A stretch of DNA of 64,000 nucleotides from the NCBI RefSeq assembly GCF_003634585.1, contig NZ_RBLG01000005.1, positions 124,001 to 188,000 of the forward strand, in the 5' to 3' direction. Positions 9,671-42,812 of the stretch are shown here, one piece after another (the first letter of the stretch is position 1; each line of letters opens with the position of its first letter). The position numbers were made by a program, and so were the translations under genes. Under the pieces are notes generated by a model that was given only the letters and a program-made list of their open reading frames with translations, was not told the DNA's origin and searched no databases. Origin of the DNA: Gillisia mitskevichiae. Its GTDB lineage: Bacteria > Bacteroidota > Bacteroidia > Flavobacteriales > Flavobacteriaceae.

Positions 9671-12600
9671 ATGGGTAAAAAATTACTTTTTCTGATTTTA
9701 ATATTATTTGCCTACCTCTTCCCTGCTTCAGGAATGGCCCAAGAATGCCCAAGCAGTATTTCAATATCATCTAATTTAGGAACTACTATTTGTGAGAACA
9801 CAAATGTGACTTTTACTGCTTCCCCTAACGGAGGAACAAGTCTTTCTTTTGAATGGTTTGTAAATAGTAGCAGTAGTGGAACCGGGCTTAGTTTTTCTTC
9901 AAATACCTTATCCAATAGTGATAAGATAAAGGTTGTTGCTAAATCTACAGACAATCCTTTATGCTCAACAACAAGTAACGTATTAACTATCACTGTTAAC
10001 GCTATTAGAGTACCATCTGTAAGTATTAGCTCAACTGCTAATACAATATGTCCTGGCGATAACGTAAAATTTACGGCATCACCAGTTAACGGGGGCACTT
10101 CCCCTAATTATCAATGGAAAATTGGATCTGCTATTCAGAGCGGTAATTCTAATACTTTTTCAACTACCGCTTTAACAGATGGACAATCTGTTACTGTTCA
10201 ATTAACTTCTAATGCCACTTGCGCAGCGCCTACTACTGCCATCAGCGATCCAATTGTTATTGCCGTACAGCCTGGAACTCCATCTATACCATCTGCAATT
10301 CAAGGAGAAGCAAGTGTATGTCCTGGTGTATCATCATTAGTATATTCAGTTCCTGCAGTTACTAATGCAACAGAATATATCTGGAGCTTGCCTAACGGTT
10401 GGTCTGGCACAAGTACTACTAACACAATTAGTGTTACTTCCGGAGCTACTGGAACTGGAACGATAACTGTAAAAGCAAAGAATAGTTGTGGTACCAGTGC
10501 AGCTCAATCCTTACCTATTACTATAAAAGCTGGAACTCCAACAACACCTATAGCTATTACAGGGGATACACAAGTTTGTCCAGGCATATCAAAAACCTAT
10601 AGCGTTGCAGCAGTTGCAGGTGCTGTCGAATATGAATGGACTTTACCAAATGGATGGAATGGTTCAAGCATAACCAATAGCATAAATGTAACTACTGGCA
10701 CTACTGGGAATGGGAATATTACGGTTAAGGCAAAAAACGACTGTGGAACAAGTCCTGCCAAAATTCTAGCGGTATCTGTAAAACCAGGAACTCCTGCTGT
10801 ACCAACAACAATATCGGGAACTGCTAATATTTGTCCTGGCACCACGAATACCTATTCTATTGCTGCAGTTCCCAATGCCACAAGTTACGAATGGACATTA
10901 CCAAACGGATGGACAGGCAATAGTACCTCAACATCTATAAATGCAATTAGTAATTCATCTGGAGGTGACATAAAAGTTAAAGCAATTAATGATTGCGGCA
11001 TCAGTGCAGTTCAAACCCTAACTGTTACCATGAAAGCAGGTACGCCTGCCACTCCTTCTATTATTTCAGGGTCAAACACCGTTTGCCCAAATACTTCTGA
11101 AACATATTCTGTTACAAATAATACAAATGCAACGGAATATATTTGGACACTTCCTAATGGTTGGACTGGAACAAGTACTACATCCAGTATATCTGTTACA
11201 ACTGCTGTATCAGGCTCTGGTAACATAAAAGTGAAGGCAAAAAATGATTGTGGTACAAGTGCTGAGGCTACAATTGCTGTAAGCATAAAAGCTCCAGCTC
11301 CAATTATGAATGGAACTATTTCAGGTCCTGCTACAGTTTGTTCTGGAAGCAGTGGCTTAACATATACAATTCCTGCTATTGCCAATGCCGCAACTTATAC
11401 TTGGTCACTTCCTACTGGTTGGTCCGGAAACAGTACAACCAATTCCATTACAGCAACTGCTGGAACTAGTGGGAATATTTCAGTAAAAGCCATTAATAGC
11501 TGCGGAGAAAGTGGTCCTTCCACCAATTTTGCCGTTTCTGCAACATCCGGAGTTCCTTCGACCCCAGGGGTGATCACTTCAAGTTTGGGCAATAATAAGA
11601 ATATTTGTCCTCCAGCAACTGCAATAACTTTTAGTCTACCAACTGCAGTAGCTGGCGCAACTTCTTATAGTTGGACGCTACCATCTTCAGGTTGGGAAAT
11701 AATATCTGGTGCAGGCACAAGAAATATTACCGTTAAAGTAACTTCTGCAGCAGCTTCAGGAGCTCAGCAAGTTAGTGTTCAAGCTATAAATATTTGCGGT
11801 ATCACTTCTTCTACATATACAGGAATTGAGGTTTCTAATCACATTGTTACTAATGCAGGAGCAGATATTACAGTTTGTAAAACAACTAATTTAGCACCAA
11901 TTACATTTGATGCAAGCGTGGTCTTCGGAAATTCTAAATTTGATCCAACCTTTCAATCGTCTGGTTCCGGTTCATTCCCTGGACCTGCACCTAAAAATGA
12001 AAGTGGGAATTTTACTTACCAATATAAACCAACATTAGCAGATTATAATTTGGGTCAAGTAACTATAACTATGACTGTACCCCGGCCAAATGGTAACAAC
12101 ACCAATTGCGGAACAGGTAATGGAAATAATGGAGTAGATGACGTAGTCATATTTTTCAAACCAGATCCAACTGCAAGTATTGCAGGAACTTCAACAATTT
12201 GTACAGGGAATGCTACTGATATTACATTTACTGGAACCCCCAATTCCATAATAACTTATAAAAAAAATGGAGGCGCAGATCAAACGATTGCAGTTGGATC
12301 GAGTGGGAATGCTACTTTAAATACGGGAGCCTTAACAGCAAATACCACCTATTCTTTAGTAAGCGTAAAACATGCAGCTGCTCCAGATTGTTCTATACAA
12401 ATTACGGGCTCTGCTATAGTAACTATAACTCCCAAACCTACTGCCACCATAAGCTATGCGAACTCTCCATATAACAAATGTATAACAACTGTTCAACCTG
12501 TAACCTTAAATGGCACAGGAGCTTTTCAAGGTGGAAAATACTCATCTACAACAGGATTAACTATAAATCAGAATTCAGGTGCTATAACTCCATCAAGCAG

Positions 12601-15600: not shown

Positions 15601-18600
15601 TGCCATATTAAGCGTAATCCCATCAGATATTGCACCTAAACCTGTTAAAGTTGAGCCCGCAGTTGTTTGCAAAGGGGATATTGTAACTTTGAGTTCGAGT
15701 ACTGGTTACGGAGAAACCTTTGGTGAATTTGATGGAGGGGCATTTGGCAATGCAGCAATTGATCAAAGCAACAATCCATGGAGATTTAAAGACAAAGGGG
15801 TAATTGTAAATTTCGAATCATCGGCAAATAATACCAAGCCCAATAGATGGAATAGAACACAACGTCATGATTTTATCACTGCTAATTTAACGAGTCCATA
15901 TAGTACAACTTTAAAAGAATGGAATTCAATAAATCCGGGACAAGAACATTTCGCCATCGTTTCTGGAAATAATTCCACTACAATGGAAACCCCGGTTTTC
16001 GCTTTATCTGGATTAGACCAAGGCATTTTAACCTTCGATCAAGCATATAATCTTACCCCTGGAGCTACAATTAAGGTGCAAATTTCCACAGATGGAGGAA
16101 ATACATATAATGCAGTATTATTTCAGAAAGTTGGAGTATCAGGTAGTGGAAATTATGACCGTTTTAGTCAAGGAACAGTGGGAATAAATAAAATGGCTTT
16201 AGATTTAGGTCAATATTTAGGTCAAAATAACCTAAGAATCCGCTTTAGCTTTGATGGCACAAGAGATGGTGATGTTTGGGCCGTGGACAATGTTATTGTT
16301 CCTGATGGCCCTCAAGATGTTACTTTAGAATGGAGAGATTATAGTGACCCAGCATTCCCTGAAGGAATCTTTATTGGTAATGATAATTCTGAAGAATGGG
16401 AACCAAAATTAATTGGATGGAACAAATTCGAGGTGAAAACTGCAATTATATTAGATTCGAATGGTCAAAATTGTAGTAGTATAGAAAATTCTAAAACCAT
16501 TAGAGTTTTTGTGTTTGACAGATATACCACAACTATAACCTCAATTGCAGGCACTTGTGGGAATTATTTTGCTGAATTAAATGCCATTACAACTGGAGCT
16601 TTTGGTGGAAATATTGGAAGCTTTCCAACAGCAGATGGATATATAGGAGAATGGGAGATTAAAAAAGCTGGCGTTATAGCAGATCCAGCTACTTATACTT
16701 TAACTAACGTAGTTGCCAATAGCTCGTTAACTCCTAAAAACAATCCTAATGTTCTGTTTGAAGCAACTATTTCCGGGGACTTTGAAATGGTTTGGAAACT
16801 AATTTCAACCTCTATTTATCCTAACGATTATTTTGATGAAACGCTAAGAGGACAAGTAGTTCAAAATACTGGGTGCTTACCAGTATTCACTCCAACACCT
16901 ATTCAATTAAAAGATTGTACCACATTGGATTTTGATGGTGTGGATGATTATGTAGACCTTGGGACTAGCTTTACCGGTAGTTACAGTATTGAAGCATGGG
17001 TAAGGCCAGAAGCTGCTAATGGAACTATCATAAGCGGTCCTAATTTTGATATTTCTCTAGTAAGTGGAAATGTTAAGTTTAACTCTAAAACATTCTCTGC
17101 TGCCTTAACTCCAAACTCCAGATGGTATCATATTGCAGCTACGTCTGCTGGAGAACTTTATGTAGACGGAATACTTATAGATAATGGTGCTGGAGTAGGT
17201 GGTGGATTTGCCAAGACTATAATTGGTGCAAAATGGAATGCCTCTAGTAAAAAAGCTGAAGATTATTTTTCTGGATGGATTGAAGAAGTTAGAATATGGA
17301 AAAAGGAACTAAGCATTGAACAAATTCAATTTATGATGAATCAGCATTTACAAAATGCTGCTAATATGGGTAAAGAAATACCTATGCCAGTACCAGGATC
17401 ACTCACATACAGTGATCTTGAAGGTTACTATCCACTAATATCCAAAATTCCAGATCTAAATAATTTAGAAACTTTTGAAGCAGCACTGATGCCTGCAAAT
17501 GGACTTACACCAGATATCTCACTTTCCAATATAGTTCCTGGAAGACTATATAACATGACTACAGATCAGCAAAACACTGCTCCTCTTCCATATATTTCAG
17601 CAAATGATGGATTATGGTCTAATATAAATACCTGGTTACGTCCAAATGTTTGGGATGCACCAAATAGCATAGGTGTGAAAACTAGTATAAGAATAGACTG
17701 GAATATTGCTAGAATTAATCACAATATAGAGTCTGGAGATAGAGACATCACACTTTTAGGACTAAAATCGGAAACGCAAAATAAATTATTAGAGATCTCT
17801 GGACCTGGTAATAAAGATGAAAATAATAGTGGACAATTATTAAGAGTTACACATTATTTGAAATTGGATGGTAATATAGATTTGGTTGGTGAATCTCAAT
17901 TAATTCAAAATGAAGGAAGTTTGCTCGAAGAAGCGAGTGCTGGTTACTTAGAAAGAGATCAACAAGGAACCTTAAGTAGTTTTAATTATAATTATTGGAC
18001 TGCACCAGTAAGTATTCAGGGAGCAGCTAATAACTCAGGATTTACAGTACGTAATATTATGTGGGATGGTACAGATGCTAAAAACCCAAAAGCTATTAAT
18101 TATAAGCCCTCCTACCCTGCCGCCGATGGTGCTAAAACCAACCCTATAACCAAAAGTGATTACTGGATTTATAAATTCGCGAATAAATTAGCAGACGATT
18201 ACGATTCTTGGCAACATATAGGAAGTACAGGTTTCCTTAAAACTGGAGAAGGCCACACAATGAAAGGGGTATCTGGAGTTGGAGGGACAGCTGCAATAAA
18301 ACTAAAACAAAATTATGTTTACAGAGGTAAGCCTAATAATGGCACAATCACCCTACATATAGATAAAGAAAAAAATTATTTAGTAGGTAATCCATATCCT
18401 TCAGCAATAGATGCAAACGAATTTATTTACGACAACCTAAACTCGGTTAACGTAGTTGGAGCTCGTAATAATAAAAATGTTTTTGATGGAACTTTATATT
18501 TCTGGGATCATTTCTCTGGAGCAACTCATATATTAAGAGAATATATTGGAGGCTATGCGGTTTTAAATTTAACTGGAGGTGCACCCGCTATTGCTACAGA

Positions 18601-19546
18601 TGATAGAATTAATTCTACCGCAGGAGTATCTACAAAATCTCCTGAAAGATATATCCCAGTATCCCAAGGCTTTTTTGTAAATACCGGAACAGAAGAAAAC
18701 ATATCTGGGGGTGTTCCTTTCACCTTAGATGGTGGTGAGATCACTTTTAAAAATGGCCAAAGAGTATTCTCTAGAGAGTCGTCTGGAAATTCAATTTTCC
18801 TAAGACCAGAGAACATAACTAAAACCAGAAAAGACGAAGTGAAGAATACTGGTTCTAGAATACGAATTTCATTTAAATCTCCAAAAGGATATTTAAGACA
18901 ACTATTAGTGGGTACCAATGCTTATGCAACAAATGGATTTGATCTAGGTTATGATGCTCCAATGATAGAATATAATTCTGAAGATATGTATTGGTTGCAA
19001 GCAGGGAATTTCTTGGTAATACAAGGAGTACCAGATTTTGGTAAAGATCAAATTTTACCAATAGGTGTACGAATTGAAAAAGCTGGGGAGTTCACAATTA
19101 AAATTGATACTCTGGAAAATATAAATGATGATCATACTATCTATTTAAGAGATATTACTTTAGATACTATACACGATATACGATCTAAACCTTATTTAGC
19201 AACCGCTGAACCAGGTGAAATTACTGATAGATTTGAATTGATCTTTTTTAAAGAACAAGCACAAGTACCTATAGAGGAACCTATTATAATTGAGGACATA
19301 ACAGATTTAGGTCTTTTACATTCCTATTTGGAAAACGAAATGATGGTCCTTAATCCTCAAGAATTAAGTATCTCTGCAATTTATTTATTTGACCTTAATG
19401 GGAAACTCCTACATGTATTTAAGGATACACCTTCTGAGAAAGAGATAATTTTAAGGGTTGGGAATTTTAGTGAAGGAATATATATTTTAAAGATGCATAC
19501 AGTTAAGGAAATCATTACAAGAAAAATTATAATAAAGAATAAGTAG
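9671..19546 (+). CDS. Giant T9SS-secreted adhesin-like protein A1 (PKD-like/Ig-like repeats, LamG, sorting tail)
   Basis: A 3291-residue exported protein, presumably on the cell surface or released. The signal peptide is residues 1-24 (hydrophobic core LLFLILILFAYLF, cleavage near GMA-Q). Two Ig-like domains come first, then six PKD-like repeats of about 84-86 residues (about 202-722) marked by VCPG, YxWTLPNGW and VKAxNxCG. Five repeats of a second kind follow (about 923-1354: PFC, GAYEGG, GLSINxxTGAITPS). Further Ig-like and Ig_7-like domains (TNYWVSQT) come next, then a MAM/jelly-roll-like stretch around 2020-2230. Residues 2416-3291 are the module shared with A2-A4: LamG (LDFDGVDDYVDLG), GNPYPSAIDANEF, LYFWDHFSG, VSQGFFVNT and the T9SS tail (IYLFDLNGKLL, EGIYILKMHT, RKIIIKN). 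There is no enzyme motif. Adhesion or glycan binding is inferred from the domains. Confidence 0.88.
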   Translation: MGKKLLFLILILFAYLFPASGMAQECPSSISISSNLGTTICENTNVTFTASPNGGTSLSFEWFVNSSSSGTGLSFSSNTLSNSDKIKVVAKSTDNPLCSTTSNVLTITVNAIRVPSVSISSTANTICPGDNVKFTASPVNGGTSPNYQWKIGSAIQSGNSNTFSTTALTDGQSVTVQLTSNATCAAPTTAISDPIVIAVQPGTPSIPSAIQGEASVCPGVSSLVYSVPAVTNATEYIWSLPNGWSGTSTTNTISVTSGATGTGTITVKAKNSCGTSAAQSLPITIKAGTPTTPIAITGDTQVCPGISKTYSVAAVAGAVEYEWTLPNGWNGSSITNSINVTTGTTGNGNITVKAKNDCGTSPAKILAVSVKPGTPAVPTTISGTANICPGTTNTYSIAAVPNATSYEWTLPNGWTGNSTSTSINAISNSSGGDIKVKAINDCGISAVQTLTVTMKAGTPATPSIISGSNTVCPNTSETYSVTNNTNATEYIWTLPNGWTGTSTTSSISVTTAVSGSGNIKVKAKNDCGTSAEATIAVSIKAPAPIMNGTISGPATVCSGSSGLTYTIPAIANAATYTWSLPTGWSGNSTTNSITATAGTSGNISVKAINSCGESGPSTNFAVSATSGVPSTPGVITSSLGNNKNICPPATAITFSLPTAVAGATSYSWTLPSSGWEIISGAGTRNITVKVTSAAASGAQQVSVQAINICGITSSTYTGIEVSNHIVTNAGADITVCKTTNLAPITFDASVVFGNSKFDPTFQSSGSGSFPGPAPKNESGNFTYQYKPTLADYNLGQVTITMTVPRPNGNNTNCGTGNGNNGVDDVVIFFKPDPTASIAGTSTICTGNATDITFTGTPNSIITYKKNGGADQTIAVGSSGNATLNTGALTANTTYSLVSVKHAAAPDCSIQITGSAIVTITPKPTATISYANSPYNKCITTVQPVTLNGTGAFQGGKYSSTTGLTINQNSGAITPSSSTAGTYTVTYETLASGGCEKVSTTSQVIIEDIPTISLSYSGTPFCSDDTSSPLPTLGGTGAYEGGNYSAENGLDINGNSGAINIPNSSPGTYNVIYSITPANGCTPITQSASVVITEKPQPSINYLSTEFCKSETDSKAVTLTQTGTAIITGGTYSSSPSGLNINSSTGAINPSMSTAGDYTIKYTLNTGNGCQSVFTETTLSITETPSAEINYAGPFCQSNSTPQQVTFSNTIGAYEGGVFSGTAGLSINPSTGAITPSTSQSGEHTITYAFVASGGCESTEINTIVIITSAPTATVSYNGPFCTSQSSPQAAIFDNTAGAYQNGTFSGTNGLSIDSNGNIDPSSSIPGEHIVTYTIPATNGCEENEMTAEIEILEQVIITTQPSNVGICSTLSAEFEVVASGDNLTYQWFKDGIEISGKTSSLLSFNNATSTNAGDYYVVVSGTSPCSPITSETVTLNVDEEIIIIKPAEDETFCENDVTEITFEFIAHANGAPLTFEWIKDNNTINAGGNYTMITTGPTGPTGEYNGKLTISNLTTSDNGAYAVKIKGPDYFTCQDATSKSFTLSIKDQPEPPLTADLTYCQGDIASSLTAIGTSLKWYETETGDDLISGTPTPITSDVGYTSYWVSQTPSECESLREELVVEVKARPAIPSTTTNLTFCLNEVVNTPLEAIGESGNTINWYNTENSVTPLSTAPTPNTSTDVTTNYWVSQTQGNCESDRVQVSITINPLPILTASTNITTICAGSPATLTASGASTYLWTVDGEPIQPAAESTKASPQVSPTETTTYLVTGTSDKGCTSTTTVTIQVDKQTIAPTITPSATSVCITNNTGSLSIAGTVYEGTIQRWESSVDGGTTWNIINNITETLTFTNLNQTTKYRVAVKSGICAELLSAPVEIKVDPVPVGGNLLFTKNNERIYLSCVSPTSSSGLSNISISGHSGTIVAWKYRKISASTWTTIQTSGTSITASQIYALGLNESMVFQVEISSGSCTPNALSQTAILSVIPSDIAPKPVKVEPAVVCKGDIVTLSSSTGYGETFGEFDGGAFGNAAIDQSNNPWRFKDKGVIVNFESSANNTKPNRWNRTQRHDFITANLTSPYSTTLKEWNSINPGQEHFAIVSGNNSTTMETPVFALSGLDQGILTFDQAYNLTPGATIKVQISTDGGNTYNAVLFQKVGVSGSGNYDRFSQGTVGINKMALDLGQYLGQNNLRIRFSFDGTRDGDVWAVDNVIVPDGPQDVTLEWRDYSDPAFPEGIFIGNDNSEEWEPKLIGWNKFEVKTAIILDSNGQNCSSIENSKTIRVFVFDRYTTTITSIAGTCGNYFAELNAITTGAFGGNIGSFPTADGYIGEWEIKKAGVIADPATYTLTNVVANSSLTPKNNPNVLFEATISGDFEMVWKLISTSIYPNDYFDETLRGQVVQNTGCLPVFTPTPIQLKDCTTLDFDGVDDYVDLGTSFTGSYSIEAWVRPEAANGTIISGPNFDISLVSGNVKFNSKTFSAALTPNSRWYHIAATSAGELYVDGILIDNGAGVGGGFAKTIIGAKWNASSKKAEDYFSGWIEEVRIWKKELSIEQIQFMMNQHLQNAANMGKEIPMPVPGSLTYSDLEGYYPLISKIPDLNNLETFEAALMPANGLTPDISLSNIVPGRLYNMTTDQQNTAPLPYISANDGLWSNINTWLRPNVWDAPNSIGVKTSIRIDWNIARINHNIESGDRDITLLGLKSETQNKLLEISGPGNKDENNSGQLLRVTHYLKLDGNIDLVGESQLIQNEGSLLEEASAGYLERDQQGTLSSFNYNYWTAPVSIQGAANNSGFTVRNIMWDGTDAKNPKAINYKPSYPAADGAKTNPITKSDYWIYKFANKLADDYDSWQHIGSTGFLKTGEGHTMKGVSGVGGTAAIKLKQNYVYRGKPNNGTITLHIDKEKNYLVGNPYPSAIDANEFIYDNLNSVNVVGARNNKNVFDGTLYFWDHFSGATHILREYIGGYAVLNLTGGAPAIATDDRINSTAGVSTKSPERYIPVSQGFFVNTGTEENISGGVPFTLDGGEITFKNGQRVFSRESSGNSIFLRPENITKTRKDEVKNTGSRIRISFKSPKGYLRQLLVGTNAYATNGFDLGYDAPMIEYNSEDMYWLQAGNFLVIQGVPDFGKDQILPIGVRIEKAGEFTIKIDTLENINDDHTIYLRDITLDTIHDIRSKPYLATAEPGEITDRFELIFFKEQAQVPIEEPIIIEDITDLGLLHSYLENEMMVLNPQELSISAIYLFDLNGKLLHVFKDTPSEKEIILRVGNFSEGIYILKMHTVKEIITRKIIIKNK
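10274..11836 (+). repeat. Six PKD-like repeats inside A1
   Basis: Six consecutive protein-level repeats of about 84-86 residues share GTPxxP, VCPG, Y-x-W-T-L-P-N-G-W and the closing V-K-A-x-N-x-C-G-x-S. They resemble the PKD-like domains frequent in flavobacterial secreted proteins. The DNA is clearly diverged between copies, so this array is older than the one in A3. Confidence 0.8.
12437..13732 (+). repeat. Five repeats of a second beta-domain type inside A1
   Basis: Five repeats of about 86 residues, each with P-x-x-x-I-x-Y, one or two Cys, G-A-Y-x-G-G, G-L-x-I-N, G-A-I-x-P-S and a closing G-C followed by a beta strand. I do not recognise a named family with confidence; it is probably an Ig-like fold. 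Confidence 0.7.
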
Positions 19547-19864: not shown

Positions 19865-19904
19865 AAATTGAGTAGAACAAAAACATTGTTTTACTCAATT
19901 TTTT
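19865..19904 (+). terminator. Terminator-like hairpin far downstream of A1
   Basis: The arms AAATTGAGTA-G-AACAA and TTGTT-T-TACTCAATTT form a 16-pair stem (one G-U) with a 5-base loop, followed by a T run. It lies about 320 bases after the A1 stop and about 320 bases before the A2 start. Confidence 0.7.
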
Positions 19905-27236: not shown

Positions 27237-27353
27237 CATTAAAATTCGTACATATATTAGGTTTCCGACAATAAAAACTAGCTAATTCACAGTATTTATG
27301 CGTTTTAGCTAAATTTTTCGCCCTTTATCAAAACTACTTTCATGTAAACTACG

Positions 27354-27361
27354 TACATTTG
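27354..27361 (+). promoter_or_regulatory. Bacteroidota -7 box upstream of A3
   Basis: TACATTTG, an exact TAnnTTTG match, lies 23 bases before the A3 ATG. The 40 bases ending here align with those upstream of A4 at about 29 of 40 positions by eye. A 13-base palindrome (ATTTGT-A-ACAAAT, 27367-27379) sits between the box and the start codon. Confidence 0.55.
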
Positions 27362-27384
27362 GAAACATTTGTAACAAATTTTGC

Positions 27385-33300: not shown

Positions 33301-33951
33301 TTCTTTTGGTTAATTAATAACTATGAGTATGTTATTCAAGGGGTTAATAATTTTAATCCAGACCAGGTCTTACCAATTGGAGTTTATATTTCTAAAGCAG
33401 GTGAAGCAAAATTTGAAATAAATAAGCTAGAGAATATTCCAGATAAAACAAATATCTATTTGAAGGATCTAGAAACGAAGTTATATCATGATCTAAGAAA
33501 ATCGGAATTCAAAATAGCATTGGAACCCGGAGCATACTATGAACGTTTTCAAATTGTATTCGAGAAAAAAGATGATACTCCTGAGGAGACTGAAGAAGAA
33601 ACTGAGACGGAAACTGAAGAAGAGTCCGAAAATGAGAATTCAGGTAATACAGGGGAAGAAAGCGAGATAGATTCAGGAGAAGAAACCGGTTCTAATACTG
33701 ATGAATATAAGGAACTGAATCTTTACTATATAAGCAAGGATGAAGAAATTTCCATATTAAATCCTCAGTTAATAGATATAAATAGAGTAGAAATATATAA
33801 CGTACTAGGACAAATTGTACATAAATATTCAGAAATTACAAACGGTAAGGAAATTAGACTTCCTGTTCATGAGAATTCTACAGGAGTGTATCTTGTGAAA
33901 TTATATGCTGAAAATAGAATAATAGTAAAGAGAATTATACTATCGAATTAA
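27385..33951 (+). CDS. Giant T9SS-secreted protein A3 (HYR-like repeats, jelly roll, LamG, acidic linker, sorting tail)
   Basis: A 2188-residue exported protein. The signal peptide (about 1-27) begins MGKITLLVR. Residues 30-185 form an N-terminal domain also present in A4 (TATTNNPNKYSIIF). Four nearly identical 78-residue HYR-like repeats (188-499) follow, then at least three diverged ones with the usual DNC and VTDxxGN patterns. A MAM/jelly-roll-like domain lies near 870-1075 (NFDGGQLNPNN to IWAMDNLFIN). The shared module covers 1259-2188: LamG (VDFDGTDDYIEFG), YNYNYWSSPV, MLGNPYPSAIDANKF, LYFWDHFGG, VGQGFFINT. A Glu/Thr-rich linker (about 2063-2108) comes before the sorting tail (VEIYNVLGQIV, STGVYLVKLYA). 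HYR domains are Ig-like and linked to adhesion. The function is inferred and the binding target unknown. Confidence 0.88.
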   Translation: MGKITLLVRINILILMILCSTNSLLASEKSDLDKFSSTSENVCYMFFESKEIEPLGLNNSLIESFTASSYKTEEVNKSMVLAKPSITLSAIPVICKGTSNAILSYTATTNNPNKYSIIFDQSAKNVGFSDVSKDHSFPTGAGSLNINVPTNAPFGTYEATFYTSSSSNSSDKSDPYRIKIIIGDNDNPTITTLAAINVNADSGTCTYASSQLTKPSAADNCSIASVIASPTSLVLGANTVTWTVTDGAGRKATSSQTVTVVDSQDPTITTLAAINVNADSGTCTYASSQLTKPSAADNCSIASVIASPTSLVLGANTVTWTVTDAAGRKATSSQSVTVVDAQDPTITTLAAINVNADSGTCTYASSQLTKPSAADNCSIASVIASPTSLVLGANTVTWTVTDAAGRKATSSQSVTVVDAQDPTITTLAAINVNADSGTCTYASSQLTKPSAADNCSIASVIASPTSLVLGANTVTWTVTDGAGRKATSTQTVTVVDAQDPTINCVGDKIKTADIGKCYYTVIGTEFDPTATADNCGITLLSNDFNENSTLAGAQIPNGTTIIWTITDPSENTETCSFTVTVNDTQIPTLPTLPDIIAQCSITVTPPTTIDNCKETVIGTTGVDLTFTESGSIFWIFTDDSGNSTPAIEQKILINDTEAPEPELQNLPVQTINGCEISSLSDLSRPKALDNCDGIILGTLSPDFIFPYSFYGNRTITWNYIDSSGNTTTQNQEIKLVPVNINGGNITGTFQGSEFSDRVDISACGSSISILLKLVNQRGTILNWEKFAENDGAWENVSNNTSQLNVSFVQGQLESTFYRVLIKEGTCREYSKTFYVRALPAATAPSIESLDEDDSYCLNETIHLRAKTNYLATQPASVDSQTNFDGGQLNPNNPDSWLIDGSTGGYSCGGNNSKARNWSCTNDGHDFGDILYSSQAGKFAVAQGDYNDNKYKGESPSTIESPILDLTDAKFASVNFDQAYYFVNNDYANIEVSTDAGATYKPLKIIHAVGSGVKKWYTAGTAESVNGSSATRYNFSTDNTSISLNDYIGESRVRIKWSFKGTSDNSIWAMDNLFINKEILVPTDVEWTIGIGDPNEKPIKNDGTTETNVDLPANVPGHHEYGATALIAGCRTYSEDGTGLIDVYVSHAYAGEDIINNNEQCGQNTVQLNAYDNMLSANENAAKGSFELPENCVGCDDSGTNEIGTWSYMKEGNSPSCGETPRFSDVNSANSTFTADAGTYILTWTVNGCSDTVKVIITSCNTVDFDGTDDYIEFGQNHNLQGDFSLEMWVKPESTTGTQTLFSKRDGNYDGNAKGYDLKISNSGEVSFNWDKSGSISSSPYKINTNRWYHIALTHSASGEYKLYIDGVYLKLLGGGSPSENEFKAIMGAMDTKKLNKPLNFYNGWIDEVRIWNVALTSDQLHQMMNQKIIPSPTKNGNVQGEIIPKDIPNILWSNLSGYYQMESVSCGYLKSSANPIIDGELVNITSAQPQTAPIPYISVNDGDWNSSITWAQPSVWDIPNSSGIGKDILDVDPAHPSNYRSPIDWNIVKIMNNNSIKSGSRDITLLGLLSESGKLTMEGVINTSTGTGTGQGLWITHYLSLNGIIDLEGDSQLVQKRYTPSQTYESIYEENSEGYIERDQQGTASSYNYNYWSSPVVPLGNASNSTYTVASVLMDGTISAIPRNIDFGQGVTYADGKAANPRKISNYWIYKFRGKADEYSDYEHIGSTGILNVGEGYTMKGTSGVAAISDRQNYVFKGKPNNGDISLSVGKNQNYMLGNPYPSAIDANKFILDNLNASGGNNEKNIFNGALYFWDHFGGQTHTLREYVGGYATYNLIGGVKAIATDDRINSNTGAVTSNDNVPGQYIPVGQGFFINTVLDDDIGNITVDGGDVLFKNSQRAFVREETKISHFLSQEKTISNEKEATPDPKIRLDFNSPLGYQRQILVGANKNATNGYDLGYDAPLNDYNEEDFFWLINNYEYVIQGVNNFNPDQVLPIGVYISKAGEAKFEINKLENIPDKTNIYLKDLETKLYHDLRKSEFKIALEPGAYYERFQIVFEKKDDTPEETEEETETETEEESENENSGNTGEESEIDSGEETGSNTDEYKELNLYYISKDEEISILNPQLIDINRVEIYNVLGQIVHKYSEITNGKEIRLPVHENSTGVYLVKLYAENRIIVKRIILSN
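27946..28881 (+). repeat. Four near-identical 234-base tandem repeats (HYR-like domains) in A3
   Basis: Units start at 27946, 28180, 28414 and 28648, each exactly 234 bases (78 codons). Units 3 and 4 match base for base over most of their length and differ only near the end. The end of unit 4 resembles unit 1, while the ends of units 2 and 3 match each other. Each unit encodes one HYR-like domain (AADNCSIASV, NTVTWTVTD). Such identity points to recent unequal crossing-over or conversion. It also makes the copy number a possible assembly uncertainty. Confidence 0.95.
33571..33708 (+). repeat. Acidic low-complexity linker in A3
   Basis: About 46 codons are dominated by Glu, Thr, Ser, Gly and Asn (GAA/GAG/ACT runs), just before the sorting tail. 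A4 has a similar Asp/Glu linker at the same place; A1 and A2 do not. It is probably a flexible spacer between the shared module and the T9SS signal. Confidence 0.75.
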
Positions 33952-34051
33952 CAGCCTAATTCCTACAAATTTAAACTTAAGCAGAATAAAACGACCACAA
34001 ATCGTATTAAAAATGCTCTTTATCTGATTTTTAGAGCTTTAATCAAAATTA

Positions 34052-34088: not shown

Positions 34089-34097
34089 TAGGGCTAG

Positions 34098-37000
34098 ATG
34101 GAAAAAATTACTTTATTAATTAGATCGTGCTTACTAATTTTTATACTCTTATGTACTTCATATAATGTTTTCGCAAATAAAATAATAGGTTCAGATAAAA
34201 CTAGTTCTGATACTAATTTAGTTTGCCATTCATTATTTGATTCAGCAAATCTTAGTTTTTTAAAATTTGAAGAATCGAAAGTAAAAAAGATAGCGACTTC
34301 AAAAATTGCTGCTAAACCTACAATAACTTTAGGAAATAATCCATCTGTATGTAAAAGTGATACTTCTGCCAAAATTACCTATTCTACAACAACCGGGAAT
34401 CCTAATAAATATAGTATAACATTTAGTACTGAAGCTCTAGCTCAGGGTTTTCAAAATACAACAGCTGCAACTTTACCTACTTCTCCAAAAGAAATCCCTA
34501 TCGTTATTCCAGCAAATTTATCTTCTGGAAGCTACTCCGCGAACTTAGCTATTAGTAATCCTGCAGGGGAAAGAAGTAGTAATTATTCTATTTCGGTTAC
34601 TATTAAGGAATCTCCAACGGTAAATAAACCAAATGATTATATAGTTTGTAATAATGAAATAATTCCTCCTATAATATATTCAGGAAATAATATTAATGGA
34701 GTAATTTATAACTGGACTAACAACAACCCTGCAATTAATCTTAGCGCCAGTGGGACTGGAGATATTACCTCATTTCAGGCAAAAAATTCAGGGGATACTC
34801 CAATCACCGCTACTATTAAAGTTAGCCCTATAGTAAATGGTTGCACGGGAGAAACTCAGGAATATAAAATAACTGTTAACCCATCTCCTAAGTTCAATAA
34901 ACCTGCAGATGTTGTGATATGTGATAAAACCACTACTCCTGTAATAAATTTTACAGGCACAACGGTTTCAGGAACAAATTATATTTGGGCCAATAATAAT
35001 ACATCCATTGGATTAGCTGCATCTGGTAATGGAAGCATACCATCCTTCCAAGCTCGCAATACTTCTAATTCTCCAATAAGTGCAACTATTACCATAATTC
35101 CAACTGCAAATAATTGTGAAGGAGAATCTCAAATATTTAAAATTACTGTTAATCCCACAGCAAAGGTCAATCAACCTTTAGATGTTATTGTGTGTAACGA
35201 AGCGGCGGTTCCAGAGATAAAATTCTCCGGCAGCACTGTTTCTGGCACTACCTATTCATGGATCAACAATAATCCAACTATAGGTTTAGCTGCATTGGGA
35301 AATGGAAATATCTCTGCATTTACAGCTAAAAATACAGGAAATGCACCAATTTCTGCAAGTATAACCGTAACACCTAAAGCTAATGAATGTGAAGGAATTC
35401 CTGTAACATTTAAGATCACTGTAAATCCAACACCAAAAGTTAATGATGTAATAGATTATGCCATTTGTAATGGTGATAGCTTTTCAAAAATAATATTTGA
35501 AGGTAGCCCCGTTTCTGGAACCAAATATAATTGGACTAATAACGACACATCTATAGGTTTAAGTGGAAATGGTACAGAGGAAATACCAGCATTTACTGCA
35601 GTTAATAACACGACAGTTCCAGTAACTGCTAATATATTGGTAACGCCAGTTGCTAATAATTGCGACGGAGATGTTATGAGTTTTAAAATTACTATCAATC
35701 CAACCCCAACTATTACCAAACCTGCAGATATTGTAGTTTGTGATGGGGAAATGGTTGAAGAAATCATACTTAAAGGTTCTTCTGTAAGTGGAACTAGAAG
35801 AAATTGGATAAATGACAATATTGCTATAGGTTTAAAAGCAACTGGCCAAAATAAGATTAATTCTTTTATCGCAACTAATCCTACAAATCAGACTGTTTTT
35901 GCTACAATAACCATTAACCCAATTGCTAACGACTGTGAAGGAATACCGGAAACTTTTAAAATAGAGGTTAAACCAAAGCCTAGACTAATAGCTCCTGAAA
36001 ATCAAATTTATTGTAATGGAGTTTTAACAAGTACTATTCCCTTATCTGGCTCCCCAAATGATATTTTATATGATATCACAGGGGGAGCTGCAATAGGTTT
36101 ATCAAATAAGTTAGGAGTAACTGAAGTTCCAGCATTCAACACAATACCAGGAAATGCTACTATTTTAATTACACCCAAATCTAATACATGTATAGGAGAA
36201 CCTGTTACCTATAACATTCAGGTTAATCCTACTCCCACTGTATCCTTAACACCATCTAGTCAAACTATTTGTTCTGGTGAACTCTCTAATATTTCACTAT
36301 CTGGATCTTTACCTGAAACAACATTTAAATGGATAATCACGGGGATTTCTCCACCAGGAAGTATTAGTGGAGCAATAGAAGGTTCAGGAGAAAACATAGA
36401 GCAACAACTTATTAATAATACGAATGGAGTTGCAACTGTAAAATATAAAATTATACCAACAGCAAATAATTGTGATGGAACTCCAATAACTGCTATTATA
36501 AACGTTAACCCCACTCCGATCCTACAAATTACTATTCCAGAATGTTTAGAATCTGTAGATTTAACTTCTCCAAATATAAAGAACGGAAATACAACATCAG
36601 GGCTTACTTATACCTATTGGACAAATGCAGAGGCTACTGTTCCACTTTCAAACCCATCTAGTGTCGAAAAAGGATTTTTTTATATAAAGGGTACTACGAT
36701 ACCGGGTTGCTACATTGTGAAAGAGGTGGAAATTACAAAGTTAAAGCCAGTTTTAAGTAATATTTTGGATGCCCCTTCACAAATATGCAGCGGGTCTAAT
36801 TTCGATTTCACTCCTATAAGTAGCTTGGAAAACACATCTATTACTTGGACTAGAGCAGCAATAGGGGAAAACCCTGCAAATCAATCTGATGATAAAAACA
36901 TAGAAAACCCAAATGAAACTTTATTGAATGTGAGTTCTAGCCCTATTATAGCTAAATACATTTTTAAGTTAGAAACGGCAGATGGTTGTATAAATACTTC

Positions 37001-40000
37001 TGAAATAAATGTAAATATACTCCCCGAACCTCAATTAATTACCAATCCAGTTGGTGATCGGTGTAACGGTGAAGAAATATCCCATAATTTATCTAGTAAT
37101 CTTGGTAACGCTTCAATAAATTGGAGAAGAGAAGCATTTTTAAACAATCCTCGGAAAACAGGTTCTGGTAATATTATGGAAACCCTGTATAATGATTCTG
37201 GAAATACTGTTGGTGTAACCTATTATATAACATTGTCAACTTCTGAAGGTTGCTCTAGTGAAAAACAAGTGAATTTCTCTCTGCTTTCTGGCCCAAAGGT
37301 AACTGCAAATGCATCGGCTATTGAAATCTGTCCAGGAAGTAAAGTTAATTTATCTTCTGTTTTTGAAAATCAAGGAACTTTGCCTTCTGTTTTAATAGAT
37401 GAAAATTTTAATGCTTCTTTAAGTAATTGGAATACCATTAATAATACAACTGGAGGAAACACCAATGCATCTGCCTGGACCATAAGAAATAACAACTATG
37501 ATACTGGTTACGGTAGGATTAAATCTAATGATAATTCAAAATTTTACCTTTCAAATAGTGATGCTTCAGGTTCGGGAAGTAGTACTAATACAATCTTGCA
37601 ATATAACAAGCCAATAAATACTATTGGATACTCAACCCTTAATTTATCATTTTGGAGCTATTTCAGAAAATATTACGATGCAGACAATGCAGTAGTGCAA
37701 GTATCAACTATCAATAGCAACAACGATAATGACTGGACAACAATTAAAACCTACACATCTGACGTTAATGGAGTTCAAAACGTGGATTTATCTGGATTTA
37801 CTGGGAAACAATCTTTATTTATAAGATTTAAATATTCAGCCAATTGGGGGTATTGGTGGGCCTTAGATAATATTTCCATATCTGGAACAACCAAAACTCC
37901 AAATGTAATATGGACTTCTTCCACAGACCCAAATTGGAGTTCTAATGAGCAAAATCCGCAAAATGTATATCCAGCTGAAACCACAATCTATACAGCGACT
38001 TATAGTGATCCAGACATAGAATGTCCAGGCATTGGTAAAATTGAAGTAACTGTTAGACAACCACCAGCTGTCACAATTACTCCAAATTATTGCGGAGATT
38101 CAACTTTCATAGAATTAGTATCAGATAATATTTTTGCTAGTTATCAATGGGAATCTGCGGGAAATATAATTGGGACAGATCGTAGTGTAAATATTGAGCT
38201 AGCACAAACATATACTTTAACTGTTACAGACAATTTTGGCTGCATGGGGATTGGATCTATTAGTGTTTCAGATGAATTGCTGACTAATGGGGATTTCTCA
38301 CAAGGAAATATTGGTTTTTATACAGAATATCAATACGTAAATGATAATCCAAATACTAGAAATGAATTAAACCCGGAAGGTTACTTTGCAGTTAATGAAG
38401 ATGCCCATAATTTCCATAATAATTTTTATGGAAAAGATCATACTACTGGCAATGGAAATTTTATGATTATTAATGGGCATCCGGGATCTGGAAAAGTAAT
38501 ATGGAGACAAACCATTACCAATATTCAACCTAATACAAATTATTATTTTAGTGCTTGGGGAATGAACTTAAACCCTGGAAACCCTGCCCGGCTTCAATTT
38601 CAAGTAAATGGTGTTCCAACCGGTACTATTGCCGATTTAAAAGATGCACCAAAACCTACCAGTAACGGGCAAGTAAATACTAATAATTGGATACAATTTT
38701 ACAGCAATCCGTTCTGGAATTCTGGTAATTCAACCACTGCGGTATTAGAAATTATAAATTTAGAGACCATTAGAAATGGAAACGATTTTGGAATAGATGA
38801 TGTTTCATTTGGTACTCTTGAGCCAATAATATTTAGCATATCCCCATCGAACAATTCTGCAATTTGTGAGGGAAGTAATTTAGAACTGTATGCTAATATT
38901 GAAGGCGGTAGAGATCCAATAGAATTTGAATGGACCAATCCTAGTGGAGAAATTATTTCTACGGAAGAAAATCCTGTTTTAGAAAATCTATTAACTGCAG
39001 ACTCTGGTATTTATACGCTAACCGTAATTGATGGCTATGGCTGCTCTCCACAAATTGGAACTACAGAAGTTATAATAGTACCAGAAACTATTGTAGATGC
39101 AGGGGAAGATCAATCTGTTTGTGCAGAAAATGCAGAAATACAACTAAGAGGAAGTATTCTAGGCTCTATTACAACAGGAAATTGGACTGGCGGAAATGGT
39201 TCTTTTATTCCTAATAGAAACAAGCTTGACGCTATTTACACTCCCAGTACAGAAGAAATATCTGCAGGCTCGGTTATTCTTACTCTTATTTCAAATCTAC
39301 CCGATGCACCATGTGAACCTGTTTTGGACACAATTATATTAACAATAAATCCTACCCCAATAGTCGATTCTATAGAGACTACGATGCCAAGTTGTTATCA
39401 AGGTTCTAATGGAACGGCTAAAGTGATCCTACCAGCTGGAACAGGTCCTTATACCTATGTATGGAGTGATGGACAAACATCTCAAATGGCGACAGGTCTA
39501 ACGGCTGGAGAATATAACGTACTTATAACTAATGAATTTGGATGCAGCATAACTAAAGAAATAAGTATTACAGATCCATCTTTATTAGAAATAGTGTCGT
39601 CGAGTTTTACACCTGTTCAATGCTTTGGAGGTACAGACGGAAGCGTTTCTATAGAAATAACTGGCGGTGTTTTAGAAGAAGAATCCCCAAATTATAATAT
39701 CAGTTTACTTGACAAGGAGGGAATAGAAATATATAGGGAAGAAGATAATAGTTCCGGATTTCTAACAGTATCCAACTTAATCGCATCTACTTATACTTTT
39801 ATAGTATCAACTTCAAAAGCTTGTACATCTCTTTCTACGGCTTTAACTGTAAATCAGCCAGATGAAAGCCCAGCTTATGCGGGGGAAGATATAACTATTG
39901 CTGAATGTGGAACAACAATTTTCAACCTTTCTGCTTCTGAAATAGATCCTTCTGTGGCTTCAGGAAATTGGACTATATCTCTACCTATAGATGGAGGTGA

Positions 40001-42812
40001 AGGTTCTTTTAGTGATAGTACCAGCAGAAAAAGTAGCTTTGAAGGGAAAGCTAATACCGAATATATTTTAAGATGGACTGTTACACCTACAAATGGTTGC
40101 CCTCCTATTTTTGATGAGTTGATAATTACCTTCCCTCCTAGCTGTAGTAAATTAGATTTTGATGGAGTAGATGATTATGTAGATTTTGGAGATAATTTTA
40201 ATTTACGAAATAGTGAAAACGCCTTTTCTTTGGAAGCTTGGGTGAAACCCAATTCTATTAAAGGTATTAACACTATAATTTCTAAACGAAATTTAAATGA
40301 TTTAACCGATGGAGGCTACGACTTAATATTAAACAAGGGAAAACCTTCAATAAGACTCAATAACAAAACTATCTCTACAACCCAATCTATTGGTACAGAT
40401 AGATGGTATCATATTGCAGCAGTGCAAGAAGGAAACCTAATAAATCTATACGTAGACGGTATAAAATTGAAAACAGATAATCTTTCAACAAAGCCCGGAG
40501 ATATTAATTCTCCTATGCTAATAGGGGCAATGTATGATCCTGCTGAACCTTTAAATCCTAAGAATAATTTTCATGGTTGGATTGAAGAAGTTAGAATTTG
40601 GAAAACAGGATTAAATCAAGAACAAGTTAGGTTCATGATGAATCAACGTATTAAAAATAATAATGGGAATGTTCAAGGTGAAGTAATTCCAATGGACGTA
40701 CCAACAAATCTTTCATGGAACAACTTAGAAGGTTATTATAGGTTAATTACAGGAGAGGTGGAAAATGGATTTGCATTAGATCATGGGACCTCTGGAATTA
40801 GTGGATTATTGAAAAATATAGAAACAACCCAAGAGAACAGTGCTCCACTCCCCTACATCTCTAAAAGTGATGGAAAATGGTTTGATTCTAATAGTTGGCT
40901 ACAATCAAATGTTTGGAATGCACCAAATACAACTGGAATTAATGGATCTTTAATAAATTGGAATATCGCAAGGATCTCCCATAATTTAAAATCAGAAGTT
41001 AAAGACATTACACTGTTAGGGTTACTTTCTGAAGAGAACTCACTTATAATGGGTAAGAAAAACAATAAAAATCAAGGGCAAGGTTTAACTATCTCCCATT
41101 ATCTAAAATTAGATGGTTTTATTGATTTGGCAGGTAAATCCCAATTGGTTCAAAACGAAAATAGCGTTTTAGATGAATCTAGTTTAGGTTACATAGAAAT
41201 AGATCAACAAGGTACTGCTAGTAGCTACAATTATAATTATTGGTCTTCCCCAGTTGGTGAACAGGCCAAATCCAATAACTCTCCATTTAAAATTAAAACA
41301 ATAATGCTTGACGGGAGTAATTCAAATACCCCAACCAATTTGGACTTTGGGAATGGGGTTACATATGCAGATGGGCCGTTTGCCACACCAAGAAAGATCA
41401 GTAATTACTGGATCTATAAATTTAGAGGCACAGCAGATCAATATTCTGAATGGGAACATATAGGAAGTGAAGGGGTATTAAAAACTGGTGAAGGCTTTAC
41501 AATGAAAGGAACTTCTGGTAATGGAAAAATTAACGAAGAACAGAATTATGTGTTTACGGGTAAGCCTAATAATGGAACAATTAAATTAACGGTTGGAAAA
41601 GATCAGAACTATCTATTAGGAAATCCATATCCATCAGCTATAGATGCACATGAATTTTTGCTAGATAACATAAAAGCTAATGGGGGTAGAAATGATGATA
41701 ACATTTTTAATGGTGCTCTATATTTTTGGGATCATTTTGGTGGTAAAACTCATATTCTAAGAGAATACATTGGTGGTTATGCAACGAAAAATTTAATAGA
41801 TGCTGTACCAGCGATCTCTACTGATGAAAGAATAAATTCTAATGGCAATAGAGGTGTTAAGAAACCAGAGAAATTTATTGCCGTTGGTCAAGGTTTTTTT
41901 ATTAACACTTCATTAGACCCATACCTCCCAGAAAACATAAGTGTTACAGGAGGAGAAGTGGTTTTTAAGAACAGTCAAAGATTCTTTATTCCTGAAACTC
42001 CTGGAAATTCGCAGTTTTTAAAACCAGAAAAAATTAATAAGGAAACTATAGACAATGATGTAAGAGCAAAAATTAGATTGGATTACAAATCTCCTATGGG
42101 CTATCATAGACAAATTCTAGTAGGCGCTGATGTGAATACTACGAATGGTTTTGACCTAGGTTATGATGCGCCTTTAAATGACTATAATTTAGAAGATTTC
42201 TTTTGGCTAATAGACAATAGAGAATATGTGATTCAAGGGGTATCAAATTTCGATTTAGAGCAGGTGTTACCTATTGGTATCTACATTACGCAAGAAGGTG
42301 AATTTACAATAGAGATTAATGCATTGGATAATGTCCCCGAAGAAACTAATATTTATGTTAAGGATTTAGAACAAAATAAATTCTACGATCTTAGAGAAGC
42401 TAAATTTAAACTTGACATTGCACCGGGAGCTTACTACGAACGTTTTCAAATTGTTTTTCAATCAGATGAAGATATTGCTGCTAATACAGATGAGGATACG
42501 GAAGAAGAATCCAATCCTGATGTTGAAGAAGATGGCTCTGGAGATTCAAAGGATGGACCCGATTCAAACACAAATCTAGATATTATTTATACAAGTACTA
42601 ATCGAGAATTAGCAATTTTAAATCCAGATAATTTAGAGATCCAAAAAGTGGTGATTTATAATTTATTAGGTCAGAAGATCCAAGAATTTACAGAAATTGA
42701 AAATAAAAAAATAATGCCCCTTAGAGTTGAAGAATATCCTGCTGCAGTGTATGTAGTAAAAATGTTTTCTGAAAAAGGAGAAATCTCTAAAAACATCATA
42801 TTAATGAAATAA
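34098..42812 (+). CDS. Giant T9SS-secreted protein A4 (PKD-like repeats, jelly rolls, SprB repeat, LamG, acidic linker, sorting tail)
   Basis: A 2904-residue exported protein. The signal peptide (about 1-27) begins MEKITLLIR. Residues 30-172 resemble the N-terminal domain of A3 (TTTGNPNKYSITF). Seven PKD-like repeats of about 90 residues follow (about 173-807: VCN, VSGTxYxW, IGLAASGNG, FKITVNPTP). Then come Ig-like stretches, a MAM/jelly-roll-like domain near 1095-1260 (LIDENFNASLSNW to WWALDNISISG), a second sandwich near 1395-1575 (LTNGDFSQGN to GIDDVSFG) and SprB-like repeats near 1755-1900. The shared module covers 2016-2904: LamG (LDFDGVDDYVDFG), YNYNYWSSPV, LLGNPYPSAIDAHEF, LYFWDHFGG, VGQGFFINT, an acidic linker and the sorting tail (VVIYNLLGQKI). 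It is the last of the four tandem paralogues. An adhesin or glycan-binding role is inferred. Confidence 0.88.
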   Translation: MEKITLLIRSCLLIFILLCTSYNVFANKIIGSDKTSSDTNLVCHSLFDSANLSFLKFEESKVKKIATSKIAAKPTITLGNNPSVCKSDTSAKITYSTTTGNPNKYSITFSTEALAQGFQNTTAATLPTSPKEIPIVIPANLSSGSYSANLAISNPAGERSSNYSISVTIKESPTVNKPNDYIVCNNEIIPPIIYSGNNINGVIYNWTNNNPAINLSASGTGDITSFQAKNSGDTPITATIKVSPIVNGCTGETQEYKITVNPSPKFNKPADVVICDKTTTPVINFTGTTVSGTNYIWANNNTSIGLAASGNGSIPSFQARNTSNSPISATITIIPTANNCEGESQIFKITVNPTAKVNQPLDVIVCNEAAVPEIKFSGSTVSGTTYSWINNNPTIGLAALGNGNISAFTAKNTGNAPISASITVTPKANECEGIPVTFKITVNPTPKVNDVIDYAICNGDSFSKIIFEGSPVSGTKYNWTNNDTSIGLSGNGTEEIPAFTAVNNTTVPVTANILVTPVANNCDGDVMSFKITINPTPTITKPADIVVCDGEMVEEIILKGSSVSGTRRNWINDNIAIGLKATGQNKINSFIATNPTNQTVFATITINPIANDCEGIPETFKIEVKPKPRLIAPENQIYCNGVLTSTIPLSGSPNDILYDITGGAAIGLSNKLGVTEVPAFNTIPGNATILITPKSNTCIGEPVTYNIQVNPTPTVSLTPSSQTICSGELSNISLSGSLPETTFKWIITGISPPGSISGAIEGSGENIEQQLINNTNGVATVKYKIIPTANNCDGTPITAIINVNPTPILQITIPECLESVDLTSPNIKNGNTTSGLTYTYWTNAEATVPLSNPSSVEKGFFYIKGTTIPGCYIVKEVEITKLKPVLSNILDAPSQICSGSNFDFTPISSLENTSITWTRAAIGENPANQSDDKNIENPNETLLNVSSSPIIAKYIFKLETADGCINTSEINVNILPEPQLITNPVGDRCNGEEISHNLSSNLGNASINWRREAFLNNPRKTGSGNIMETLYNDSGNTVGVTYYITLSTSEGCSSEKQVNFSLLSGPKVTANASAIEICPGSKVNLSSVFENQGTLPSVLIDENFNASLSNWNTINNTTGGNTNASAWTIRNNNYDTGYGRIKSNDNSKFYLSNSDASGSGSSTNTILQYNKPINTIGYSTLNLSFWSYFRKYYDADNAVVQVSTINSNNDNDWTTIKTYTSDVNGVQNVDLSGFTGKQSLFIRFKYSANWGYWWALDNISISGTTKTPNVIWTSSTDPNWSSNEQNPQNVYPAETTIYTATYSDPDIECPGIGKIEVTVRQPPAVTITPNYCGDSTFIELVSDNIFASYQWESAGNIIGTDRSVNIELAQTYTLTVTDNFGCMGIGSISVSDELLTNGDFSQGNIGFYTEYQYVNDNPNTRNELNPEGYFAVNEDAHNFHNNFYGKDHTTGNGNFMIINGHPGSGKVIWRQTITNIQPNTNYYFSAWGMNLNPGNPARLQFQVNGVPTGTIADLKDAPKPTSNGQVNTNNWIQFYSNPFWNSGNSTTAVLEIINLETIRNGNDFGIDDVSFGTLEPIIFSISPSNNSAICEGSNLELYANIEGGRDPIEFEWTNPSGEIISTEENPVLENLLTADSGIYTLTVIDGYGCSPQIGTTEVIIVPETIVDAGEDQSVCAENAEIQLRGSILGSITTGNWTGGNGSFIPNRNKLDAIYTPSTEEISAGSVILTLISNLPDAPCEPVLDTIILTINPTPIVDSIETTMPSCYQGSNGTAKVILPAGTGPYTYVWSDGQTSQMATGLTAGEYNVLITNEFGCSITKEISITDPSLLEIVSSSFTPVQCFGGTDGSVSIEITGGVLEEESPNYNISLLDKEGIEIYREEDNSSGFLTVSNLIASTYTFIVSTSKACTSLSTALTVNQPDESPAYAGEDITIAECGTTIFNLSASEIDPSVASGNWTISLPIDGGEGSFSDSTSRKSSFEGKANTEYILRWTVTPTNGCPPIFDELIITFPPSCSKLDFDGVDDYVDFGDNFNLRNSENAFSLEAWVKPNSIKGINTIISKRNLNDLTDGGYDLILNKGKPSIRLNNKTISTTQSIGTDRWYHIAAVQEGNLINLYVDGIKLKTDNLSTKPGDINSPMLIGAMYDPAEPLNPKNNFHGWIEEVRIWKTGLNQEQVRFMMNQRIKNNNGNVQGEVIPMDVPTNLSWNNLEGYYRLITGEVENGFALDHGTSGISGLLKNIETTQENSAPLPYISKSDGKWFDSNSWLQSNVWNAPNTTGINGSLINWNIARISHNLKSEVKDITLLGLLSEENSLIMGKKNNKNQGQGLTISHYLKLDGFIDLAGKSQLVQNENSVLDESSLGYIEIDQQGTASSYNYNYWSSPVGEQAKSNNSPFKIKTIMLDGSNSNTPTNLDFGNGVTYADGPFATPRKISNYWIYKFRGTADQYSEWEHIGSEGVLKTGEGFTMKGTSGNGKINEEQNYVFTGKPNNGTIKLTVGKDQNYLLGNPYPSAIDAHEFLLDNIKANGGRNDDNIFNGALYFWDHFGGKTHILREYIGGYATKNLIDAVPAISTDERINSNGNRGVKKPEKFIAVGQGFFINTSLDPYLPENISVTGGEVVFKNSQRFFIPETPGNSQFLKPEKINKETIDNDVRAKIRLDYKSPMGYHRQILVGADVNTTNGFDLGYDAPLNDYNLEDFFWLIDNREYVIQGVSNFDLEQVLPIGIYITQEGEFTIEINALDNVPEETNIYVKDLEQNKFYDLREAKFKLDIAPGAYYERFQIVFQSDEDIAANTDEDTEEESNPDVEEDGSGDSKDGPDSNTNLDIIYTSTNRELAILNPDNLEIQKVVIYNLLGQKIQEFTEIENKKIMPLRVEEYPAAVYVVKMFSEKGEISKNIILMK
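34613..36518 (+). repeat. Seven PKD-like repeats inside A4
   Basis: Seven repeats of about 90 residues carry an early Cys-Asn/Asp, G-x-x-V-S-G-T-x-Y-x-W, N-N-N-x-x-I-G-L and the closing C-E-G ... F-K-I-T-V-N-P-T-P. The first five are close to one another and the last two are diverged. Confidence 0.8.
42462..42575 (+). repeat. Acidic low-complexity linker in A4
   Basis: About 38 codons rich in Asp, Glu, Ser and Asn lie just before the sorting tail, at the same place as the Glu/Thr linker of A3 but different in sequence. Confidence 0.7.

Follow-up and report, generated by a model that had tools for sequence, protein, structure and literature searches.

Domain-swapped surface proteins of the T9SS and RemA-like anchors are already known. 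In Flavobacterium johnsoniae, RemA and RemZ are type A cargo of the T9SS and RemA serves as a gliding adhesin; PorV is the carrier of type A tails (PMC10994853; PMC12618676). Four giant proteins of Gillisia mitskevichiae, here called A1 to A4, resemble RemA and RemZ in having a type A CTD and a related stretch of about 400 aa before it (PDB 8gl6/8gl8). Unlike RemA and RemZ, they have a LamG domain before this core and heads of 1200-2400 aa of repeats, and their genes stand in tandem at pruA-rsmG in a genome that lacks PorU. The SprB repeats in A2 (15) and A4 (4) recall the gliding adhesin SprB, but the CTDs of A2 and A4 are of type A, not type B, and no PorP/SprF gene is adjacent.

Two other systems are comparable in their mosaicism. 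The T9SS surface proteins Kgp and HagA of Porphyromonas gingivalis have domains that are rearranged and exchanged, giving mosaics independent of the strain tree (PMC5266723). However, these are proteinases and haemagglutinins of strains of one species, anchored by A-LPS, whereas the proteins described here are adhesins built of repeats and encoded in ordered slots in several genera without PorU. CshA-type and other fibrillar adhesins are described as diversified by domain shuffling (PMC10952558); in contrast, the constant end is here a T9SS C-terminal anchor, and the genes stand in tandem at a site that is conserved. In the literature searched, subscription papers aside, we found no earlier account of the pruA-rsmG locus and no description of an ordered adhesin site shared by several genera.

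The array and its chromosomal site

The window, that is, the whole stretch of 64,000 nucleotides analysed, had been described in an initial annotation as carrying four consecutive giant genes on the plus strand. This was confirmed. The four ORFs are uninterrupted, encode proteins of 3291, 2336, 2188 and 2904 aa, and are bracketed by two housekeeping genes, with pruA to the left and rsmG to the right (Table 1). Terminator-like hairpins are located 3' of pruA (9357-9390) and of A1 (19865-19901). The terminator listing shows no terminator-like site in the A2-A3 gap (148 bp) or the A3-A4 gap (146 bp), so A2-A4 may be co-transcribed. No full-length member of the family other than A1-A4 was found in the genome. 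Recent tandem duplication of the four genes was rejected, since the core DNA of the paralogs is just 65-70% identical and long near-identical tracts are absent. A plasmid-borne origin was likewise discarded, as a tblastn search of one base against plasmids gave no site covering 80% of the base.

Table 1. Features of the adhesin array and its flanks, in window positions
Feature	Position	Strand	Basis
pruA, 1-pyrroline-5-carboxylate dehydrogenase, conserved left flank	7709..9337	+	translation; orthologs 77-96% aa beside arrays, Gillisia and other genera
A1, slot-1 giant T9SS protein, 3291 aa	9671..19546	+	slot-1 LamG+spacer clade 99/98 over four genera
A1 stalk: PKD_6 x8, more Ig/PKD-like repeats, Ig_7 x2	9782..14800	+	domain scan
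A1 jelly-roll (MAM/reelin-like) domain	15956..16336	+	domain scan
A1 LamG domain	16934..17329	+	Pfam Laminin_G_3 E=5e-13
A1 RemA/RemZ-like core	17753..19267	+	A1/A3 alignments; RemA/RemZ match E 1e-40
A1 type A CTD sorting tail	19352..19537	+	TIGR04183 over cut-off
A2, slot-2 giant T9SS protein, 2336 aa	20226..27236	+	orthologs G006_2, G007_2, G009_2, same head
A2 head: 15 SprB repeats	20349..24356	+	domain scan
A2 LamG domain; predicted fold near LamG/pentraxin-type lectins	24627..25085	+	AF2 model pLDDT 84, Z 16-23 matches
A2 RemA/RemZ-like core	25470..26948	+	without Pfam family or convincing PDB fold match
A2 type A CTD	27030..27230	+	TIGR04183
Slot-3 leader, 148 bp	27237..27384	+	93% identical to G006_3 leader, whose head differs
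A3, slot-3 giant T9SS protein, 2188 aa	27385..33951	+	
A3 N-terminal domain, common to A4, G007_3, G009_3, G010_1, G005_1	27628..27930	+	BLAST/HMM
A3 head: HYR repeats	27934..29586	+	domain scan
A3 jelly-roll domain	30232..30645	+	HMM
A3 LamG domain	31177..31644	+	domain scan
A3 RemA/RemZ-like core	32077..33582	+	alignment
A3 type A CTD	33757..33942	+	TIGR04183
A4, slot-4 giant T9SS protein, 2904 aa	34098..42812	+	orthologs G002_2, G004_1, G010_1
A4 N-terminal domain, A3/A4 type	34311..34607	+	HMM
A4 head: PKD_5 x9	34623..37268	+	domain scan
A4 jelly-roll domain	37614..37916	+	HMM
A4 proximal head: 4 SprB repeats	38139..39866	+	domain scan
A4 LamG domain	40161..40628	+	domain scan
A4 RemA/RemZ-like core	41013..42479	+	alignment
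A4 type A CTD	42603..42800	+	TIGR04183
Hairpin, 26-bp arms, A4/rsmG interval; possible bidirectional terminator	42825..42879	.	
rsmG, conserved right flank	42894..43541	-	synteny in relatives

With one genome sampled per species, the layout of pruA, one to four giant genes and rsmG was found in Gillisia, Salinimicrobium, Salegentibacter, Gramella/Christiangramia and Zunongwangia. Relatives thus carry tandem arrays at the same locus and within the same flanks, and not unrelated single genes. Among the Gillisia genomes, all those whose contig is intact have the array between pruA and rsmG. The number of copies is one in G005 and G010, two in G001 and G003, three in G002, G006, G007 and G009, and four in the window; rsmG was undetected in the stretch of G003 that was read, where the next genes, a desaturase gene and aspC, are present, and the G007 contig stops inside slot 1. 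The arrays of G008 and G004 are interrupted by contig ends. One genome each of Algibacter and Seonamhaeicola has a base gene inside the same flanks in the opposite orientation, and in more distant genomes base genes occur off these flanks, some of them in tandem. As judged from these comparisons, the pruA-rsmG adhesin site is old and is shared by Gillisia and four related genera.

Adhesin frames at the locus are broken in G011 (L133/L134) and G014 (L131), as is that of G001_2 (L129/L130). The frames of pruA and nqrB are also broken in G014, which suggests that its broken adhesin frames are partly due to assembly error. Two transposase-like ORFs were noted in the array of G011. An associated recombinase was considered and rejected: the extra ORFs in the intervals of other genomes, judged from their sequences, are a FAD/Rieske oxidoreductase, a Na/H-antiporter-like ORF and two transposase-like ORFs (one genome), with no dedicated switch among them.

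The shared base and the heads

The C-terminal ~890-940 aa of A1-A4 align end to end with 42-52% identity (981 columns; A2-A4 against A1, 51, 47 and 47%), and every BLAST pair of these modules gave E = 0. The common C-terminal module proposed in the initial annotation was therefore upheld over its full length, including what lies outside the sorting tail and LamG; conservation is highest in the middle ~490 aa. From N- to C-terminus, the base consists of LamG, a spacer, the RemA-like core (~490 aa), a linker of low complexity and the type A CTD. A profile of the four bases matched F. johnsoniae RemA (E 1e-40) and RemZ (2e-39) over columns 460-885. The AlphaFold2 model of the base had a pLDDT of 84 and a pTM of 0.79, and its LamG part matched LamG/pentraxin-type domains with Z of 16-23. 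The core modelled alone reached a pLDDT of 85 and a pTM of 0.88; it had no match in Pfam, and its fold search against the PDB was unconvincing, with some parts barely covered. This core (window 25470-26948 and its paralogs) is conserved across many flavobacteria.

The head families were as originally read, with PKD_6 and Ig_7 in A1, SprB in A2, HYR in A3 and PKD_5 in A4. By their domain content the heads are not wholly unrelated, because A4 also has SprB repeats, the first ~190 aa are common to A3 and A4 (33%), and a jelly-roll (MAM/reelin-like) domain is located upstream of LamG in A1, A3 and A4. Four 234-bp HYR units of A3 (27944-28891) are ~96% identical and differ mostly at third codon positions. 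We did not take them as a very recent expansion, since third-position differences make conservation of the repeats equally likely. The number of HYR repeats varies in slot-3 orthologs, G007_3 having nine.

Head architectures were mapped with HMMs built from the window's own repeats, and the classes B3 and Ig3 are therefore loose. The slot-1 plan, PKD6-B3-Ig3-Ig7-jelly-roll, recurs in slightly modified form in Gillisia, Salinimicrobium, Salegentibacter and Gramella/Christiangramia. The heads of A2 and of its orthologs in three Gillisia genomes contain 13-15 SprB repeats and are 70-81% identical. The later slots show about six plans built from shared cassettes, among them SprB only, SprB-HYR-SprB, HYR-jelly-roll, N34-PKD5-jelly-roll-SprB and HYR-PKD5-jelly-roll-SprB. 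Slot 3 has three head plans among four close Gillisia genomes, with related leaders. Slot 1 and A2 appear from these maps to be long-lived and unswapped, so exchange is not general. The suggestion that heads are swapped across the whole family does not hold for slot 1 in four genera or for A2 in four Gillisia genomes.

Exchange among slots and genera

The clear signs of swapping come from comparison of slot-3 sequences. In G009_3, residues 1-180 are of A3 type and ~187-728 of A4-type PKD5, followed by SprB repeats and LamG of G003_2 type (~750-1725) and an A3-type core (1876-2325, 74-85% to A3); by this composition it is a three-way chimera of A3-, A4- and G003_2-type pieces. G006_3 has a leader 93% identical to that of A3 and an A3-type CTD (84% to G007_3). 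Its interior resembles that of Salegentibacter genes, with 82-97% aa identity in LamG and 82.3% DNA identity over 1393 bp; housekeeping DNA of the same genus pair is 65-78% identical. An ungapped scan showed that the last 255 bp of G002_1 and G002_2 are 96% identical, with the remaining base ~50% identical in protein; this 255-bp tract has been converted between the two paralogs.

The LamG+spacer tree separated slot 1 from all other slots with support of 99/98. The core tree grouped slot 1 together in 0/200 bootstrap trees, but in the AU test a monophyletic slot 1 was still acceptable for the core (p = 0.109). For 22 slot-1 genes, which are mutually non-independent, identity to neighbours in the same genome was subtracted from identity to the slot-1 genes of other genera. 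All 22 were nearer to slot 1 of other genera in LamG+spacer (mean +10.7 points), 8/22 in the core (mean −0.5) and 4/22 in the CTD (mean −6.3), and the gradient turned at about base position 320-400. This strong pattern places the boundary of the exchange unit after LamG, which would go with the head. It is a pattern and not a formal proof, because the genes are non-independent and the AU test did not reject monophyly; given that non-rejection, the case for exchange rests on the identity gradient and the single mosaics. The initial annotation had let the base begin at LamG. From the LamG tree and the gradient, the constant part is instead the RemA/RemZ-like core with the type A tail. Its idea of a constant base with swapped heads is right insofar as the T9SS anchor is common and heads have been exchanged at the same site, but LamG has been exchanged with the head.

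When the DNA of A3 and A4 was compared with the genome, only the core and LamG-proximal regions of A1 and A2 were matched, and no silent cassettes were found. The A2-A3 and A3-A4 spacers contain no inverted repeats of at least 12 nt; in the other stretches scanned, outside the heads, there were only hairpins. As neither silent A3/A4 cassettes nor, in the stretches scanned, invertible elements were found, a rapid switching system is unlikely, and rebuilding by recombination is the most likely origin of the present arrangement.

Secretion, display and function

All four proteins scored over the 23-bit cut-off of TIGR04183, and their N-termini are hydrophobic and look like Sec signals by eye. The same genome encodes SprA (2818 bits), two PorV proteins (536 and 360 bits) and GldJ, and its CTDs comprise 14 of type A, four of them A1-A4, and five of type B. 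For traits of the SprB family, the five type B CTDs (TIGR04131) all lie away from the array, which is flanked by pruA and rsmG without an SprF-like gene. For a RemA-type lectin domain, the Pfam scan gave LamG and Ig-like families only, and other lectin families were absent. The best match to the PorU sortase in this genome (NF033707) scored 18 bits, where the cut-off is 420, and there was none at gldJ-porV. In a profile search PorU was over the cut-off in 0/16 Gillisia genomes and in 0/9 genomes of the other four array genera; it is present at 1371-1421 bits in Algibacter, Seonamhaeicola, Wocania and F. caseinilyticum. Gliding is reported to persist in flavobacteria that lack both PorU and PorQ (PMC7440613). 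Because PorU is missing from every scanned genome of the five array genera, the tails are probably uncleaved, and the fibres would be bound by PorV or shed.

We consider it rather probable that the locus, in Gillisia and four related genera, is a long-lived chromosomal site at which recombination rebuilds modular T9SS adhesins. Each array gene would produce a giant fibre, directed to the periplasm by its Sec signal and passed through the SprA/PorV T9SS translocon by its type A CTD. The RemA/RemZ-like core and the lectin-type LamG domain would lie near the cell, and the Ig-like repeat stalk, in some of the proteins with a jelly-roll, would point outward. Slot 1 retains its head plan, and later slots would be rebuilt by homologous recombination of head+LamG pieces, also between genera. 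New heads may enter with the leader and the core serving as homologous ends, and the core and CTD would be homogenised between neighbouring genes. The fibres may bind surfaces or glycans, showing several specificities simultaneously. More tentatively, the ordered site of the five PorU-less genera, in which head+LamG units would move among slots and genera onto a homogenised RemA-like core with an uncleaved, PorV-attached tail, might amount to a common pool of adhesins that all use one non-covalent plug into the T9SS.

The four genes might also be old paralogs in a stable division of labour, each kept by selection for its own ligand, with mosaics as rare accidents. The plan of slot 1 kept over four genera and the similar A2 heads of four Gillisia genomes agree with this, as do the A4 orthologs, which retain N34-PKD5-jelly-roll-SprB or a close variant, and the HYR units of A3, whose third-position variation implies a conserved protein. 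We regard it as possible but doubtful, given the three head plans of slot 3 behind related leaders, the range of one to four copies in one genus, the transfer of LamG between genera and the conversion of CTDs between paralogs. That the proteins are gliding adhesins, RemA-like cargo on the motor track of the T9SS with different heads for traction on different surfaces, seems unlikely. In swaps, the RemA CTD alone gave immobile or released protein (PMC12618676), and the five type B CTD proteins of the genome are likelier track cargo; however, the core and CTD are homologous to RemA and RemZ, GldJ is present, the RemA of F. johnsoniae acts as a mobile lectin (PMC12618676), and flavobacteria lacking PorU are able to glide (PMC7440613).

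Little probability can be given to structural matrix or S-layer-like fibres of a biofilm or sheath in place of specific adhesins. The Ig-like stalks are very long and S-layer proteins are among the T9SS exports of Tannerella (PMC10202324), but the LamG and jelly-roll domains are of lectin type, and different heads displayed together would be unexpected for one lattice. Variation of antigens or receptors as a defence against phages, predators or grazers would agree with the exchange of heads and the transfer of exposed parts between genera. It appears very improbable in view of the missing silent A3/A4 cassettes elsewhere in the genome, the A2-A3 and A3-A4 spacers free of inverted repeats and the stability of slot 1 and A2.

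As a recombining site of modular adhesins, the locus would provide a natural, mappable series with many heads on one anchor at one chromosomal address, so that binding by heads and LamG could be tested by comparison of natural alleles. The genera concerned must display their type A cargo with no PorU sortase, and they have in common a RemA-type core of ~490 aa without a Pfam family or a convincing match to a solved fold.

A headless relative of 584-588 aa, with nothing but the RemA-like core and the CTD, is encoded near hisS on another contig (L161:8678-10432; G000:C7:33680-35263), and a similar protein of 580-620 aa occurs in most Gillisia genomes. It is possibly the ancestor of the array, or a partner. 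Near the end of the window, 63397-63987 encodes a further type A CTD (Por_Secre_tail) protein, whose frame runs upstream past the listed ORF, and 62174-62542 and 62880-63254 are adjacent, similar minus-strand ORFs of ~123 aa each.
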